This document shows, in pieces, positions 10,531-37,897 of a DNA stretch of 64,000 bases. The notes beneath the pieces are model-generated. The model worked only from the letters and a program-made list of their open reading frames with translations, ran no database searches and had not been told where the DNA came from. Both the position numbers and the translations under genes were made by a program. The stretch's first letter is position 1, and each line of letters begins with the position of its first letter. The stretch is from Candidatus Poribacteria bacterium (GTDB taxonomy: Bacteria > Poribacteria > WGA-4E > WGA-3G), in the NCBI GenBank assembly GCA_958295945.1, contig OY282386.1, positions 3,342,204 through 3,406,203 on the forward strand. The letters run 5' to 3'.

Positions 10531-11115
10531 ATGAATCCAGACGAATTGAAAGATGCTGAGGATGCGGAACTCATCGTGGCGGTATTGGCCGGTAATCACA
10601 AAGCGTTTGACGAATTAGTGTACCGCTATCAACGCGGTATGCTTTCCGTAGCACAACAGGTTGTCCGAAATCCGATAGAAGCAGAAGACATTGTACAAGA
10701 TGCATTCTTACTTGCATTTGAGGCATTACCCCAACTTGATAACCTGAATAGATTTGGTTCTTGGCTCTATTCAATTACACGTAATCGCGCACTGCGTTTC
10801 ATGAAACGAGCGAGTAGAATACAATTGCATGATGATGTAGATGCAGAATTGCAAATAGAGGCGGATCCTGCTTCTACGGATCCTGCCAAAATTGTGGAAC
10901 AGGAATCTACACATGAAGATGTCAGGGAAGCGATTGATTCATTACCGTCTGATTTTAAGGAGGTAATCACGCTCTATTATTGGGCAGATATGCCGCAGAA
11001 ACGAATTGCAGAAACGCTATCGCTTCCCTTAACGACGGTAAAGTGGAGACTTCATAAAGGGAAAGACTTACTAAAAACTGTATTAGAAAAACGTGGATAT
11101 GGAGATATTTTGTAG
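10531..11115 (+). CDS. ECF RNA polymerase sigma factor
   Basis: 194 residues with region 2 (GNHKAFDELVYRYQ, then EAEDIVQDAFLLAFEAL and FGSWLYSITRN) and region 4 (SLPSDFKEVITLYYWADM, then IAETLSLPLTTVKWRLHKGK), the helix-turn-helix that reads the -35 element. It has an unremarkable ECF length and redirects RNA polymerase to a small regulon. The ATG at 10531 has AAGGAGA upstream. The next gene begins one base after its stop and encodes a DUF4097 protein that is a likely partner or regulator. Confidence 0.93.
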   Translation: MNPDELKDAEDAELIVAVLAGNHKAFDELVYRYQRGMLSVAQQVVRNPIEAEDIVQDAFLLAFEALPQLDNLNRFGSWLYSITRNRALRFMKRASRIQLHDDVDAELQIEADPASTDPAKIVEQESTHEDVREAIDSLPSDFKEVITLYYWADMPQKRIAETLSLPLTTVKWRLHKGKDLLKTVLEKRGYGDIL

Positions 11116-11116
11116 C

Positions 11117-12514
11117 ATGGAACAAGAACGACAACAAGAAATACGGGGACTTTTTCAAATTCTTGAGCAGACAGCAGAAATCGCAGAGAATTCAGCATTG
11201 ACAGAGAACTATAAGGATGGAGAAAGTCGATGTGTTTCTCAATTCAATAAGGTATTGAAACGACTGAGTGCGTTAGATGCTGTTCCTGATGCGCTCTTTG
11301 AACCATTACATGAAGATGCAAATTATAGTGAAATTAGTATTGCTTGTAATCATCTTGCAGCGTATCTAAGCGAAGGATTAGGATCATTTCCCGATTTAAA
11401 AGGGATGGTGACCAACATTCTTGGGAAAAGATTCATTGAGAACATTGAGGAAGAGTTGAAAGAAGGTAAAATAGGAGATTTGATACGGAATGCGATTCCT
11501 GAATTTATGACTGAGACTACTCTGGATGACATCAATGAATCGTTCAATGTAAGTCCGGATGGTAGGTTGATACTGGACGTTGACTTTGGGACGATTGACA
11601 TTCGGACAGCAGAGCGCGAGTCAGTTAATGTTGTCGTACACCGGGCAGCAAAGTTCAAGACAGATAGGCATGCAACGGATTTACTTAGGGATTTCCAAGT
11701 CAACATTAATCCAAAAGAAGGTGAGCTTCAAATTGAAGCGAGATTTAAAGATGGCAAAAGGTATTGGAAAAGAAACACGGATCGTCTGAATATCCATTTT
11801 GATATTACGGTTCCGCAAACTTTTCACGGTGTATATTTAAAAACAGCAGCGGGGACTATTACTGTTCAAGATTTTAGTGGGGCAGTCCAATCTCAAACAA
11901 ACAGTGGTGAACTGAAGTTTGAGAATATAACAGGTCCAATTTTTGGCAATACGGTCAATGGTGATGTCAGATTGGCTCAATGTGAAGGTAATGTTAGGAT
12001 TGAAGCATTACGAGGAGACATTGAGATAAATAACAACATCGGAAGTGTTGACATAACGACATCTGGTGGAAGTATACGTTGTGTAGATGTTGAGGGTGAA
12101 ATTATAGGGACAACATCTGGCGGCAATATCAAGCTGATACGGTGCCAAGGTGGAACAAAGGTTGAGGCTTCAGGTGGTAGTATTGATCTGGAAAACGACG
12201 GTCCGATCACTGCCAAAACCTTTGGTGGCTCTATTAACGCAGGTATATCGGGACAACTCAAGGGCGATTCAACCATAGAGGCATCAGGTGGGGACATCAC
12301 AGTTTCACTGCCCTTGAATGTATCATTGAAGGTAGATGCCAAATGTAGTGGTGGCGAGATTGCTTCTGAACTGACAGATGTTATCGTCACTGATGATGAA
12401 CATATATCTGGGCAGCTGTATGGGGTTGTTAATGGTGATGGTCCTTTATTGAAACTCCGTTGCATTGGTGGAGATATAGATTTGAAATGTAATCATGTTG
12501 ATAATGAAACATAA
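11117..12514 (+). CDS. DUF4097-type beta-repeat protein, possible cytoplasmic partner of the ECF sigma factor
   Basis: 465 residues with no signal peptide and no transmembrane segment. Residues 1-150 are mostly helical with a Cys-containing segment (residues about 30-85, including SRCVSQF and SIACNHL). Residues about 150-465 are a DUF4097/adhesin-like parallel beta-helix with repeated short strands such as TSGGSIR, TSGGNIK, ASGGSID, FGGSIN and ASGGDIT. It ends with GDGPLLKLRCIGGDIDL, which resembles the end of the DUF4097 segment in the Omp85 fusion at 34202. The gene follows the sigma factor directly (stop 11115, ATG 11117), so a role in controlling that sigma factor is a reasonable inference. 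A GTG at 11093 inside the sigma gene is a less likely start. Confidence 0.78.
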   Translation: MEQERQQEIRGLFQILEQTAEIAENSALTENYKDGESRCVSQFNKVLKRLSALDAVPDALFEPLHEDANYSEISIACNHLAAYLSEGLGSFPDLKGMVTNILGKRFIENIEEELKEGKIGDLIRNAIPEFMTETTLDDINESFNVSPDGRLILDVDFGTIDIRTAERESVNVVVHRAAKFKTDRHATDLLRDFQVNINPKEGELQIEARFKDGKRYWKRNTDRLNIHFDITVPQTFHGVYLKTAAGTITVQDFSGAVQSQTNSGELKFENITGPIFGNTVNGDVRLAQCEGNVRIEALRGDIEINNNIGSVDITTSGGSIRCVDVEGEIIGTTSGGNIKLIRCQGGTKVEASGGSIDLENDGPITAKTFGGSINAGISGQLKGDSTIEASGGDITVSLPLNVSLKVDAKCSGGEIASELTDVIVTDDEHISGQLYGVVNGDGPLLKLRCIGGDIDLKCNHVDNET

Positions 12515-29714: not shown

Positions 29715-30758
29715 TTACTTCTTTTCCCGATATTCACTTAGCAATTTGTTAATCTTATCAAGAAACTCTTGAGAGTATATTTCCCCGACCAGAGCTTGAT
29801 GCGTTTCTGTAGCGAGGGTATTCCACGTCTCTATCGAATCATCTTCAAACTTGATAACTTTAATTCCTGCTTTCTGCACAAGTGCATCAAGTGAATCCTT
29901 ATTATCCTGCCGAACATTCTTCATCAATTCAGTCTGATATTTTTCACCAACATCCAATATAACTTTCTGTTGTGCGGGTGTAAGTTTATCAAACTTCTCT
30001 TTTGTAATTATAGTTGCACCGACACCGACATTGACAGGTAGATCTGTCATATACTTAAATCTGGATGCCCATTGTAGGGCAACTGTAACATAAGGAGATA
30101 CCGTTACTGCATTTATCTGTCCAGAGTATAAACCCGGCAAGACTTGAGTAACTTCTTTCGGTACAGTTGCAATATTGGCTTTTTTATAGAACATTCGTCC
30201 GATCTTGTCATTTGTTCGCAGCCACATTTTGACATTGGGTGATTTAAGATCATCAATATTCCTAATAGGATGATTGCTGAAAATGTGGTAGAACCCTATG
30301 TCACCCATTCCAATTAGGACATATCCTTTCTCCAAGAATACATTGTAAAGATCTTCACGGAGATGTTGTCGGACATAGTCAAGTTCTTCGTAGCTTCTGA
30401 ACATGCGCGGGAGTTGAAAGATTAGGACCTCTTCATTAATTTCGCCAAGTCCTGTTGCAGTCATAGCACCCGCATGGATCAATCCATTCCGCATTTTACT
30501 GATCACATCAAGTTCGTCACCCTGTATACCGTTTGCATAGAAACGGAATTTTATCTGTCCATCCGTATTAGTCTGAATTTCTTTCGCCATTGCATTGAAA
30601 TTGTTCATCCACGTAGAACCTTTCGGTGCAAGTGTGGCGAACTTTATAGACTCAACAGCAAGCAGTGTTGCTGGCAAACATATTAATCCAATTAATAGTA
30701 TAGTCACACATACAACACTTGAAACATTTCTCTTGTACATTGTTTTCAAATTCCTCAT
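29715..30758 (-). CDS. TRAP transporter periplasmic binding protein (DctP/TatP type)
   Basis: 347 residues with an N-terminal signal segment (hydrophobic 13-33) and a DctP fold: KFATLAPKGSTWM near the start, FRFYANGIQGDELDVISKMRNG, then SPNVKMWLRTND containing the ligand-binding Arg, and an Ala/Gln-rich C-terminal helix. It captures an anionic or hydrophobic substrate in the periplasm. Its ATG overlaps the stop of the TatT gene by one base (TAATG). The matching permease is not adjacent; the only TRAP permease in the window is at 4835. Confidence 0.9.
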   Translation of the reverse strand: MRNLKTMYKRNVSSVVCVTILLIGLICLPATLLAVESIKFATLAPKGSTWMNNFNAMAKEIQTNTDGQIKFRFYANGIQGDELDVISKMRNGLIHAGAMTATGLGEINEEVLIFQLPRMFRSYEELDYVRQHLREDLYNVFLEKGYVLIGMGDIGFYHIFSNHPIRNIDDLKSPNVKMWLRTNDKIGRMFYKKANIATVPKEVTQVLPGLYSGQINAVTVSPYVTVALQWASRFKYMTDLPVNVGVGATIITKEKFDKLTPAQQKVILDVGEKYQTELMKNVRQDNKDSLDALVQKAGIKVIKFEDDSIETWNTLATETHQALVGEIYSQEFLDKINKLLSEYREKK

Positions 30759-31660
30759 TATTCAATTTCCTCTTCTTCTAAATCAAAAAGTGTATCAACT
30801 TGTAAAAGTAATCGTTCAGATCGTGCTTTTGCGAGAGAAGTTGCTGCATTTTCTCCAGGAAAAATGTCTGATGGTGCGTCAATGACTTCTTGCAAAGCCT
30901 TCTTAAACAGTGCTACGTCTTGTAATGGATAGGCATAGTATTTTGCCAAATAGAACTTGCTCATAAGGAACTTGCCCTCATTTATTTCATCTACGCGTTC
31001 GATGTGTTCCTTTGCCTTTTCTGGATTCCCACCAATAGCTGGCGATCTGTCCCCATAATAGACAGCATAGAATAGGTGTGCACTCCCGAAATAGAAGTTT
31101 TCATCTAATTCCAATACGCGTTTCATCATCAGTTCAACCCGCTCAAGGTCAATCACCTGCATTGGGTCGTCTTTTTGTAGACTAATACCGCGTCCGACCG
31201 AATAAGCTGCCCAGAACAGGGGTTCAACATCCTTCTTTTTGATTTTCTGAACTGCTTTTGCGAATGTCTCTGGATCCACTGTTCGTGCCTTTTTGAAGGT
31301 CTTATTAGATTTTGCCAATGCTTTGAATGCATACATTTCAGAACGTACGTAATGCTCAATAGCCTTACTACGCATTTCATCTGCAGTTTCAAAATCACCT
31401 GCAATCTCTGCTTCCTCCATTTTATCTTCAAGAAATCCGCCGTAAGAAGAAAAGGCGCGTGAAGTCTTAACAATCAATGACTTATTTCCTAACTTCGCTA
31501 ATCCTTCAAGAGTTTTTAGGTTTTTCTCAAGAGTGGTTTCAACCACCTGCAAGTCGCCTTCCTTTTGAATGCTTGATAGTTTACTTAGACCGCATCCGCT
31601 CAGTAATAGAGCTAGTAGAAGTATATACACTATACGAGTGTAATAATTATTGAATGTCAT
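30758..31660 (-). CDS. TRAP-associated lipoprotein TatT
   Basis: 300 residues. A lipoprotein signal ends with LLSGCG (Cys about residue 23). The remainder is a helical TPR-like protein matching the TatT (T-component) family of TRAP transporters, first described with a TRAP binding protein in Treponema. In that system a trimer of TatT holds the binding protein and may shelter hydrophobic ligands. The coupled dctP gene supports this assignment. A GGGGG-rich ribosome binding site lies before the ATG. Confidence 0.85.
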   Translation of the reverse strand: MTFNNYYTRIVYILLLALLLSGCGLSKLSSIQKEGDLQVVETTLEKNLKTLEGLAKLGNKSLIVKTSRAFSSYGGFLEDKMEEAEIAGDFETADEMRSKAIEHYVRSEMYAFKALAKSNKTFKKARTVDPETFAKAVQKIKKKDVEPLFWAAYSVGRGISLQKDDPMQVIDLERVELMMKRVLELDENFYFGSAHLFYAVYYGDRSPAIGGNPEKAKEHIERVDEINEGKFLMSKFYLAKYYAYPLQDVALFKKALQEVIDAPSDIFPGENAATSLAKARSERLLLQVDTLFDLEEEEIE

Positions 31661-34201: not shown

Positions 34202-37200
34202 TTAGAACATCTGTTCCAAACGCCAAAGAATTAATAGTTTCCGTGCCGAAGATTCTACATTGAGTGGCAGCGCGAATTCAAACATAGAGTTCAAAGGCAA
34301 ATCAACACCTGGGGGATGGACAAAGATTGATATTCCAATACCAGCCGATAATTTGAAATCATTCAATGAAAAATTGGTAAACGGGTTTTCATCATACCAC
34401 CAAACTTGTCCTGCATCTAAAAAAGTGCTGAGTGCCCATCCGATTGAAACATCTGAAAAACCTTCAATATAGGTAATATCCATAAATCTGTGTTCAAGAT
34501 TCAGCACAAATCGTTTATCCCCTGCAAAAGTGTTGTGTCTAAAACCGCGAAGGTTCGGTAAGCCGCCAAGGTAAAGCAGACGTTGTGATGGTAAGCGTCC
34601 ATCGGAAAAATCCCCAAGAATACGGACATTTAGGTTATGTTTACCAATCAATGGTGTGTATCGTATTAATTCCAATTGATAAGTGTTATATGTCCAATCT
34701 CTACCGAGATTGCCGCCTACTATTTCTATACCTATATTTCCTCGCCAACCCTGTCGTGTATGTGGATTGGGTCTCAGAATCATTTGGCTCGCGAGATTGT
34801 CAGCACCATCAAGAGTTGATTTATGATCTCGTGTGTCAAAAGTGTATCTCAATGCAACAATGTTCTGCGTGCCAGTGTCAATCCGTTGATTTCCGAGTTT
34901 GACTTTGCTTCTATCATAATAACTCCAATCCGTTGATTTGAAGAGATTATCATGATGTTCATAAATCAATTCCAGACGCACCTGAGATGATTGTCCAAAT
35001 TTCTTTGCAATCCAGACATGTTCTCCCTGACTTTGAAAAAAATGGTCAACAGATGTACCGTAGAAAGAATCGCTTAGGTTAAACTCAGCAGGCAATAAGC
35101 GGAAGTCGTTTATACTCTTATTCGTTAATTTGTATGAACCGACCCCTATAGTCAATGGGAAACGTGTGAAAAAGGTGTTTTCCACACCGACTTGATAGTT
35201 CAAAATGCGGCTTGAAACTCCGAGACTGAATGAACCGAACAGATGTTCTTCATCCAGAAGATGAGTTGATAGGTTTCCACCCGCACCTAATACTAACCCG
35301 TGCACACGATTGAAACCGACTATAGGAAACCAACCGGATTTTACTAACGGATGTTCAATTATATCTACAATCAGAACATTTTTCCCACCTTCTCTTTGTG
35401 CTTGCCAATCGCCAACCGACTTGAAAGCATCATTGCTCTTCTTGAGTTCTTTCTGTAGGTTATTGATCTTGTTTTGACCTAAAGAGTGAAAATATACACC
35501 TTCGCTATCCAAATCTAATGCAGCAGTTAGTACCGACTCTGGAATGCGACGATTGCCAGTAAAACGAATTTCATCAATGCTGCCTTCGCTTATGTTATAC
35601 TGTAGTTGGTCGTTGTCATATTCATGGGTAACATTTGCAAATGAGAAGCCGCGGTTTAAATAGAAATCGCGAATCATTTGTTGCTTCAAGTGTATATTCG
35701 CATCAGAATAATAACTTGGAAATAGATCAAACCAACGTTTGATGAAAAGTGCGGGAAAACTCCTATTCCCCCGGATGTTTATTTTGTTTGCATTCTGCAC
35801 TTTTGTTTCTGTCACACGGATTCGCACATTGACTTTTAACAGTCCTTCCTTCTGTAGACTATCATTCTTGGTAGTGTCGGTATCATCCTCTGTAGAAGTG
35901 CTTGATGGATTTGTTGGTGCAAATTCAGTATCTTCTTGTTCCACAATAGTAATAGTCAATTCCACCTTCTCAAACCAATCCAAATTCTCTAAATGAGAAA
36001 TTAACCGAGACAATTGTTCGTTTGTAATTGTGGCACCAATTGCAATTGGAATTCTACCTAACAGGACATCATAAGGGATGGTGTCGTTTCCCTCAATTTC
36101 AATAGTATTCACTATAAAATAATCTGATATATCAAACGTTTCTGTGAATAATGGATGTTTCTTAACCAACTTTAATTTTCCCATTCCTTCTTTCCAGTGG
36201 GGCCACCACGGATATTCTTCATCATACATAGGCAACCAGTAACTATACTCACGATGAACTGCGGGGTTCATATCATTGCCTACATCCTTTTTCAATTGCG
36301 AATTGCGAAAAACGTTGAGAAGCCAAGTTTCATCCCCATCTTTTTTATTCGGCTTTCGTGGAATGGCGGCTTCTAAACTCCAATAATTAGCGTTGATTTT
36401 AGTCGCAACTTTTGAATTTGAATTCCATGAACTATCCGCTTTGAACTGGACGACTGAACTATCACTCTTTTCTCTCTTTACACCGTTGGGTGCGAATCGA
36501 AAATTTGGGAAACCTACTTTTGTGACCATTTGATCGAACACACCGCCAATCGGATTGATGATGAGATGCGAATATGCTTCCGTTTTTGGATCCATATCAA
36601 GTAGGATTTCAATAGATTCATCTTCCCAGATAGGTGAATCAAGTTGTGTTTGTGATACGCGCGGAACTTGTGATTCCTGTATGAACGCTCTTACACCAAT
36701 ATAAAAGTTGTCTGCGTCATACATCATAAACACATCTGTCTGATTTTCAGCGGTTTCTGTTCCTGCAGGATTCTGAAAAGCAGAGAGTGTATTTGAATAT
36801 AGCCATGTTGTTTCTGATAAATATCCATCAATCGTAGGCGGTTCTGTGGTTAATGGGATAGGCAACTCAACATCGGATGTCGACACTTCTTGATCGCTTC
36901 CCTGATTGGCATCATTGGATTTACTACGTAATCTCGGATTCGTAAGTATTGAAATTGTATCGGTGGCATTTAAACGGAGCAGCGGACCTCCCTCGTTGAT
37001 AATGCCGATGTTATCTTCAATTTCGGATGGTAGATTGATAAGATACTGATGTTTCTCACTATTGAGTTCAACATCAGCAGGATAATTGATTGGAAGGAGT
37101 AATTTGATATTACCACGCGATGCGGTTATATCAAGCGGAGCAGGAAGGTCGTCAAGCAGAGATAGGTCAATTGAACCGTTTTGCGTCTTTATTTCGCTCT

Positions 37201-37897
37201 GTCCTGGTGTCAACAATATTTGTCCATGAATGCGTCCGCTATATGTTTCCACTTGATAGTTTCCTGTGGTCTCATCCAAATGGACGTTTCCTAACTCATT
37301 GGTTATTTTTATTTTTCCGCGTAAGTGATGAATGTAGACATCTCCAACTCTAACTCTGAGATCTACAGCAATATCTGAAGGTGTTTTAATTTCATAGTTT
37401 AGTTGCAGATCTTTTTTAAAGTCGGATGTGCTTTTTTCATCGTTTGTCTGATCGGGTATGTCTTCTGGCAGCTGCACATTCAACTGAAGCACACCATCTT
37501 TTTGAGTGTTTGTTAATTTGATTTTTTCTAAATATTCCTTTGTAAAGAGTGAATTTTCCACGAGAGCGTGTTTTTCCAGTTTAACACTAATAGTATCTTT
37601 GAGTTCTACATTACTGTCAATCGCCAGTATTTTTATATTACCGGGTATGTCTAAATGGAGTTCTATTTTGAAGATGTCGGCATAACTAAAGGTGTTTTCT
37701 GTGGTTGGTGGGGAAGAAACCTTAGGGGGTGCTTGAGTTCGGTCTTTTGCCGTTTGTTCACTAAGGGGTGTAGAACGTTCAGTGCCAGTCTGCAAAACAT
37801 TGAGGGCATCTATTGACTGGACTGAAGCACAAATTCCTAATAAGACAAGACAAATAATCCATTGCCAATAACCTGACGTAATCATAAATCTCAACAT
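34202..37897 (-). CDS. DUF4097 + CBM9-like + POTRA + Omp85 fusion outer-membrane protein
   Basis: 1231 residues with an N-terminal hydrophobic signal. Residues about 65-315 resemble the DUF4097 beta-helix (YSGRIHGQ, TQNGSIDLS, SRGNIKLL, ending GGPLLRLNA). Residues about 345-580 match a CBM9/DOMON-type domain of exported proteins (PPTIDGYLSETTW, then DNFYIGVRAF, then DESIEILLDMD). POTRA-like domains start near 599 (IEIEGNDTIPYDVL), 707 (KINIRGNRSFPALF) and 775 (IDEIRFTGNRRIPES). The last 370 residues form an Omp85 barrel with the loop-6 motif LRGFR near 1116 and a terminal aromatic. It should sit in the outer membrane with a long periplasmic part. Known Omp85 proteins insert or transport proteins; the added domains suggest binding of a polymer or glycan. 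No ribosome binding site is evident. Confidence 0.85.
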   Translation of the reverse strand: MLRFMITSGYWQWIICLVLLGICASVQSIDALNVLQTGTERSTPLSEQTAKDRTQAPPKVSSPPTTENTFSYADIFKIELHLDIPGNIKILAIDSNVELKDTISVKLEKHALVENSLFTKEYLEKIKLTNTQKDGVLQLNVQLPEDIPDQTNDEKSTSDFKKDLQLNYEIKTPSDIAVDLRVRVGDVYIHHLRGKIKITNELGNVHLDETTGNYQVETYSGRIHGQILLTPGQSEIKTQNGSIDLSLLDDLPAPLDITASRGNIKLLLPINYPADVELNSEKHQYLINLPSEIEDNIGIINEGGPLLRLNATDTISILTNPRLRSKSNDANQGSDQEVSTSDVELPIPLTTEPPTIDGYLSETTWLYSNTLSAFQNPAGTETAENQTDVFMMYDADNFYIGVRAFIQESQVPRVSQTQLDSPIWEDESIEILLDMDPKTEAYSHLIINPIGGVFDQMVTKVGFPNFRFAPNGVKREKSDSSVVQFKADSSWNSNSKVATKINANYWSLEAAIPRKPNKKDGDETWLLNVFRNSQLKKDVGNDMNPAVHREYSYWLPMYDEEYPWWPHWKEGMGKLKLVKKHPLFTETFDISDYFIVNTIEIEGNDTIPYDVLLGRIPIAIGATITNEQLSRLISHLENLDWFEKVELTITIVEQEDTEFAPTNPSSTSTEDDTDTTKNDSLQKEGLLKVNVRIRVTETKVQNANKINIRGNRSFPALFIKRWFDLFPSYYSDANIHLKQQMIRDFYLNRGFSFANVTHEYDNDQLQYNISEGSIDEIRFTGNRRIPESVLTAALDLDSEGVYFHSLGQNKINNLQKELKKSNDAFKSVGDWQAQREGGKNVLIVDIIEHPLVKSGWFPIVGFNRVHGLVLGAGGNLSTHLLDEEHLFGSFSLGVSSRILNYQVGVENTFFTRFPLTIGVGSYKLTNKSINDFRLLPAEFNLSDSFYGTSVDHFFQSQGEHVWIAKKFGQSSQVRLELIYEHHDNLFKSTDWSYYDRSKVKLGNQRIDTGTQNIVALRYTFDTRDHKSTLDGADNLASQMILRPNPHTRQGWRGNIGIEIVGGNLGRDWTYNTYQLELIRYTPLIGKHNLNVRILGDFSDGRLPSQRLLYLGGLPNLRGFRHNTFAGDKRFVLNLEHRFMDITYIEGFSDVSIGWALSTFLDAGQVWWYDENPFTNFSLNDFKLSAGIGISIFVHPPGVDLPLNSMFEFALPLNVESSARKLLILWRLEQMF

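Follow-up and report, generated by a model that had tools for sequence, protein, structure and literature searches.

Omp85 proteins build the outer membranes of all diderm bacteria. Ten subfamilies were defined by Heinz and Lithgow in 2014, including patatin, WD40/beta-propeller, metallo and no-N-terminus forms (PMC4104836), so our preliminary description was wrong to state that POTRA domains are all that known Omp85 proteins have in the periplasm. The protein described here (P0001) shares with the BamA-like subfamily of that survey the one to three POTRAs, the Omp85 barrel and the constant presence of a true BamA beside it, but differs in its CBM9 and toastrack domains, which are not described there. 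CBM9, carbohydrate, DUF4097 and Poribacteria are all unmentioned in PMC4104836, and the order toastrack-CBM9-POTRA-barrel thus falls outside its ten subfamilies. PlpD (type Vd) likewise has a non-POTRA domain followed by POTRA and barrel, whereas P0001 has no patatin match and has three POTRAs, and its secretion is putative. Another relative in layout is the group of DUF5916 proteins (CBM9_1 plus DUF5916), in which a CBM9-like domain is also joined to a probable outer-membrane barrel, but the C-terminal part is DUF5916 and not Omp85.

Domain architecture of the fusion protein

Within the window, by which we mean the whole 64-kb stretch of Candidatus Poribacteria DNA analyzed, a single open frame of 1231 aa occupies positions 34202-37897 on the minus strand. 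Its product carries, in this order, a putative signal peptide, a toastrack (DUF4097), a CBM9 domain, three POTRAs and a 16-strand Omp85 barrel. Orthologues at 80-44% identity are free of stops, which establishes a real gene and excludes a chance frame. The features are as follows.

34202..37897, minus strand: whole gene of the toastrack-CBM9-POTRA3-Omp85 protein P0001, 1231 aa (open frame; orthologues phylum-wide)
37805..37897, minus strand: signal-peptide-like N-terminus, residues 1-31, hydrophobic at 12-27, without a lipobox (read from the sequence)
36935..37702, minus strand: toastrack (DUF4097) beta-helix, residues 66-321 (PF13349, 20.0 bits; Z ~13 to 3pet, 4ygu, 4qrk)
36161..36871, minus strand: CBM9 domain, residues 343-579 (PF06452, 21.3 bits; Z 18.7-20.0 to 1i82, 7nwn, 4jpq)
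35807..36118, minus strand: POTRA 1, residues 594-697, interrupted at ~655-684 by a disordered insert (beta-alpha-alpha-beta-beta in the model; POTRA_2 weak)
35588..35800, minus strand: POTRA 2, residues 700-770 (PF07244 at 704-772; model)
35354..35572, minus strand: POTRA 3, residues 776-848 (model)
34205..35344, minus strand: Omp85 barrel, residues 852-1231, 16 strands (PF01103; DSSP of the model; Z 22-25)
34541..34552, minus strand: LRGF motif, residues 1116-1119 (sequence)

Pfam matches of P0001 lie above the cut-off for POTRA (PF07244, 66.5 bits over three stretches) and Omp85 (PF01103, 36.1 bits; cut-off, 24) and slightly below it for CBM9_1 (21.3 bits; cut-off, 23.4) and DUF4097 (20.0 bits; cut-off, 22.9). 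Both of the latter domains are above cut-off in the orthologues L079 (DUF4097, 38.6 bits; CBM9_1, 41.6 bits) and L059 (27.2 and 40.4 bits, respectively), as is PF13349 in the orthologue L073. In an AlphaFold2 model of residues 61-600 (pLDDT 81; 48 orthologues as input), residues ~61-321 adopt a toastrack fold (Z ~13 to 3pet, 4ygu, 3ljy, and 4qrk) and residues 343-579 a CBM9 beta-sandwich (Z 18.7-20.0 to 1i82, 7nwn, and 4jpq). Because the predicted folds match in this way, the DUF4097/CBM9 identity of the first 580 residues is settled, and domain searches did not contradict it. The full model adds three domains of POTRA fold and a barrel of 16 strands (DSSP), which matches Sam50, TamA, and BamA at Z 22-25, and the LRGF at residue 1116 is the Omp85 (V/I/L)RG(F/Y) motif. 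With its 16-strand barrel, this motif, and POTRAs ahead of the barrel, P0001 belongs to the Omp85 superfamily.

Every part of the preliminary description's account of the protein, namely, a single 1231-residue frame with N-terminal DUF4097, CBM9, POTRA and an LRGF-bearing Omp85 barrel, was thus borne out by the open frame with its orthologues, Pfam, AlphaFold and structure matches. The non-POTRA, non-barrel N-terminal part, which it had placed in the first ~580 residues, ends at residue ~579 by domain search and predicted fold. Toastrack-CBM9-Omp85 is a real, conserved, and new Omp85 architecture, though not a new kind of protein.

A barrel subfamily distinct from BamA and its spread in Poribacteria

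P0001 resembles TamA, BamA, and Sam50 in barrel fold, and has three POTRAs as in TamA. However, it scored 72.5 bits against the BamA model TIGR03303 (NCBIfam), below the equivalog cut-off of 297, and the idea that the fusion serves as the BamA of the phylum was rejected, since a canonical full BamA (393.7 bits) is encoded elsewhere in the genome, at G000:C1:4170398. A profile of the fusion barrel yielded at least 115 bits on the Poribacteria fusions, on Poribacteria paralogues and on 19 barrels of other phyla, versus at most 55 bits on BamA and TamA, which also lack the added CBM9 and toastrack and form their own clade in the barrel tree (support, 100/99). Inside the subfamily, this tree has poor resolution (13 of 47 inner branches open). 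By these sequence comparisons, the fusion barrel is a separate, non-BamA Omp85 subfamily, and weak matches to DUF5686 suggest that it may be akin to that family. Other Omp85 proteins of the same genome are a TamA-like protein of 623 aa and a multi-POTRA protein of 964 aa. The genome also encodes a 979-aa protein in which Peptidase_MA_2 and a PD40 beta-propeller are combined with an Omp85 barrel (L088:474-3410; G000:C1:5010500), as well as three clustered Omp85 proteins of the subfamily, of 774, 775, and 830 aa (L090:616-3105 and L089:662-6473; G000:C1:2439000-2460500), the longest of which carries DUF4252 and CBM9.

Poribacteria are bacteria living mostly in sponges. The P0001 family has a match in 83 of 84 Poribacteria genomes, and toastrack and CBM9 share one frame in 76 of the 84 (among the matches listed; hand count), so the same domain order is found in related genomes, where the preliminary description had proposed to look for it. 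There is one full-length fusion copy per genome, separate from BamA, and the fusion is a core gene present in nearly every Poribacteria family. The eight genomes without the one-frame combination include four with completeness of 64-79% (G010, G054, G055, and G057) and one with 88% (G046). In family f3 (G036, G039, and G041), the protein is a 650- to 690-aa version with toastrack and barrel and without CBM9 or POTRA. Since f3 nests inside the full-length fusions in the barrel tree (support, 99/94), CBM9 and POTRAs were lost in this family, and toastrack and barrel, the only two parts retained, are the core of the fusion. Among the matches listed for 204 genomes of other phyla (down to ~106 bits), no frame joins toastrack and CBM9. 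As to whether the architecture is widespread and already described, it is the former, being phylum-wide, but in the open-access literature we found no relevant paper joining Omp85 with CBM9, CBM48, Poribacteria or bactofilin, an earlier mention elsewhere being possible.

The surroundings of the fusion gene are syntenic within Poribacteria families and include YgfZ-like, TRAP transporter and adenylate kinase genes. At the loci inspected these neighbors are housekeeping genes, among which no envelope or other functional theme was found, so operon support for an envelope role is absent in Poribacteria. In family f1, synteny with the Omp85 gene extends to a TRAP transporter gene pair, DctP and TAtT (T-component), at 29715-31660 of the window (minus strand).

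Toastrack and glycan-module partners in other phyla

Eighteen genomes of other phyla were picked by barrel score, and toastracks were sought in them independently with Pfam DUF4097. In 6 of the 18 (G156, G272, G084, G280, G140, and G217), a toastrack gene lies within 6 kb of a subfamily barrel, versus 0.33 expected (P = 3e-7, which is approximate, as three adjacencies had already been noticed when the test was made and the gene counts are manual entries). In G156 the adjoining gene is the sole toastrack gene of the genome. In the other 12 genomes, the 6 kb on either side of the barrel contain no separate toastrack gene. The 72 genomes searched were preselected for a toastrack or CBM9 match, and the position test is independent of that choice. 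In G227, toastrack and barrel are fused, with a weak POTRA match. The loci discussed below are as follows.

L119:3458-15486 (G084:C63): gene row made up, in this order, of an ECF sigma factor, a zf-HC2 anti-sigma factor, two toastracks, an Omp85 barrel, a LiaF-like toastrack, a further toastrack, and CBM9-DUF5916
L134:5416-6957 and L129:6397-9189: CBM48/AMPK1_CBM-barrel fusions in two genomes of other phyla

The G084 row presents the three parts of the Poribacteria fusion as separate genes. An AMPK1_CBM/CBM48 domain is fused to the subfamily barrel in G255, and three such domains are found on the barrel of G217 (E 6e-42), where a sigma factor and a toastrack are close by. These two cases, in addition to CBM9, indicate that glycan-type modules joined the barrel subfamily more than once. 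Barrels outside Poribacteria often bear a bactofilin-like beta-helix, mostly below cut-off and above it only in L129; the proposal that their N-terminal domain is a hidden toastrack was dropped (hhalign probability, 19.7%, with weak Bactofilin matches instead).

The putative sugar site and a possible role in the envelope

The CBM9 domain of P0001 resembles CBM9.3 of Caldicellulosiruptor and TmCBM9-2 (PMC8280721) in fold (Z 19), in the Trp clamp and in Glu77, while those domains are attached to a xylanase and this one to a barrel. The two clamp residues are located as follows.

36626..36628, minus strand: W424, equivalent of TmCBM9-2 clamp Trp71 (profile alignments; Trp in 43/49)
36203..36205, minus strand: W565, equivalent of TmCBM9-2 clamp Trp175 (hhalign; Trp in 43/49)

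In the same alignment, Glu77 corresponds to E430, kept in 42 of 49 sequences, and Gln96 to H444, with His in 43 of 49. Arg98 of TmCBM9-2, which we take to be a binding residue, has no conserved counterpart in the fusion-family alignment, and ligand specificity may thus be altered or lost. A His at the Gln96 position is shared with the sugar-binding CBM9.3 (PMC8280721). The TmCBM9-2 reference sequence is consistent with the profile-alignment letters and with the residue numbers of PMC8280721. By HMM alignment, the position of W424 is not Trp in the DUF5916-linked CBM9 of G084, the one DUF5916 protein checked, nor in the CBM9 of the 830-aa paralogue. Residue conservation suggests that the clamp of the P0001 domain is functional.

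CBM9 and toastrack might instead be ligand-free structural spacers on an extra BamA/TamA-like insertase. Folds of the CBM9 type often recur in domains that do not bind sugar, such as the DOMON/cytochrome relatives also matched by the structural model, and POTRA and barrel are complete. However, the family conserves the clamp tryptophans along with Glu and His, W424 is absent from the two other CBM9-like domains checked, and two further genomes have CBM48-type modules joined to barrels of this subfamily; we regard spacers as unlikely. The preliminary description had linked the domain to polysaccharides or to the secretion of large polymers. The first link gains from the conserved clamp tryptophans and from the CBM48-type modules present on barrels of this subfamily, to the extent of predicted glycan binding, while the second is without support. 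An export gate for polysaccharide or lipid, in which CBM9 would take up the polymer at the barrel, follows that suggestion and fits a glycan-binding fold adjoining the barrel, but polysaccharide synthesis or export genes are not conspicuous nearby in the genomes inspected, and we know of no glycan-exporting Omp85 protein. This is the least probable of the readings weighed here and a very unlikely one.

Our tentative preference, which falls somewhat short of even chances, is that P0001 is an accessory Omp85 protein of the envelope whose CBM9 holds a glycan and whose toastrack serves as a docking surface. The barrel would sit in the outer membrane with the N-terminal arm in the periplasm, where CBM9 may clamp the end of a glycan, either peptidoglycan or an outbound surface polysaccharide. 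The toastrack could dock partner envelope proteins, as it is the sole N-terminal domain retained when the others are lost. The protein would thereby position an Omp85 assembly barrel on periplasmic glycan, or tune the barrel to glycan, in envelope homeostasis. In other phyla the same pieces occur as separate neighboring genes, in some cases with ECF sigma and anti-sigma factors.

The main rival to a periplasmic arm is type V(d)-like self-secretion, which would place a toastrack-CBM9 passenger on the surface as an adhesin for host or matrix glycans, given that the order of passenger, POTRA, and 16-strand barrel is that of the patatin-like PlpD, known for surface delivery (PMC4104836). The matched toastrack structures are, moreover, titled putative adhesins. 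The sponge habitat of Poribacteria would suit such a function. However, type Vd autotransporters have one POTRA, versus three in P0001. A core gene of nearly every Poribacteria family also fits housekeeping better than host contact, and other phyla encode the toastrack separately from the barrel, in some cases in sigma/anti-sigma clusters. We consider surface export rather improbable.

The toastracks of PSP/Lia envelope-stress systems share the fold of the P0001 domain and have been inferred to be intracellular (PMC11237479); sigma and anti-sigma factors likewise occur near toastracks in G084, and a sigma factor beside a toastrack in the window. By contrast, the P0001 toastrack precedes an outer-membrane barrel and must lie outside the cytoplasm, contrary to the general inference of that study. 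A broader and rather doubtful reading is a hitherto unrecognized cross-phylum envelope module of barrel subfamily and toastracks, with repeated CBM9/CBM48 additions and, in some genomes, under ECF sigma/anti-sigma control, that would sense periplasmic or surface glycan and adjust outer-membrane assembly, and that is fused in Poribacteria. The question touched here is how outer-membrane assembly is coordinated with cell wall or surface glycans. P0001 may provide a link of this kind; a barrel subfamily that repeatedly gains glycan-binding domains, and whose partner toastracks can lie near sigma/anti-sigma factors, offers a direct handle on that coordination.

Another toastrack cluster, which in G023 and G034 lies close to an Omp85 of 662 aa, was set aside, this Omp85 being on the opposite strand amid other genes; of this cluster, G000 has only the N-terminal-domain gene. 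At 10531-12514 of the window (plus strand), an ECF sigma factor gene overlaps one whose 473-aa toastrack (DUF4097) product is extended at the N terminus by a domain of ~145 aa. In G023, G034, and apparently G019, this domain is encoded by a gene of its own, which precedes a separate toastrack gene.
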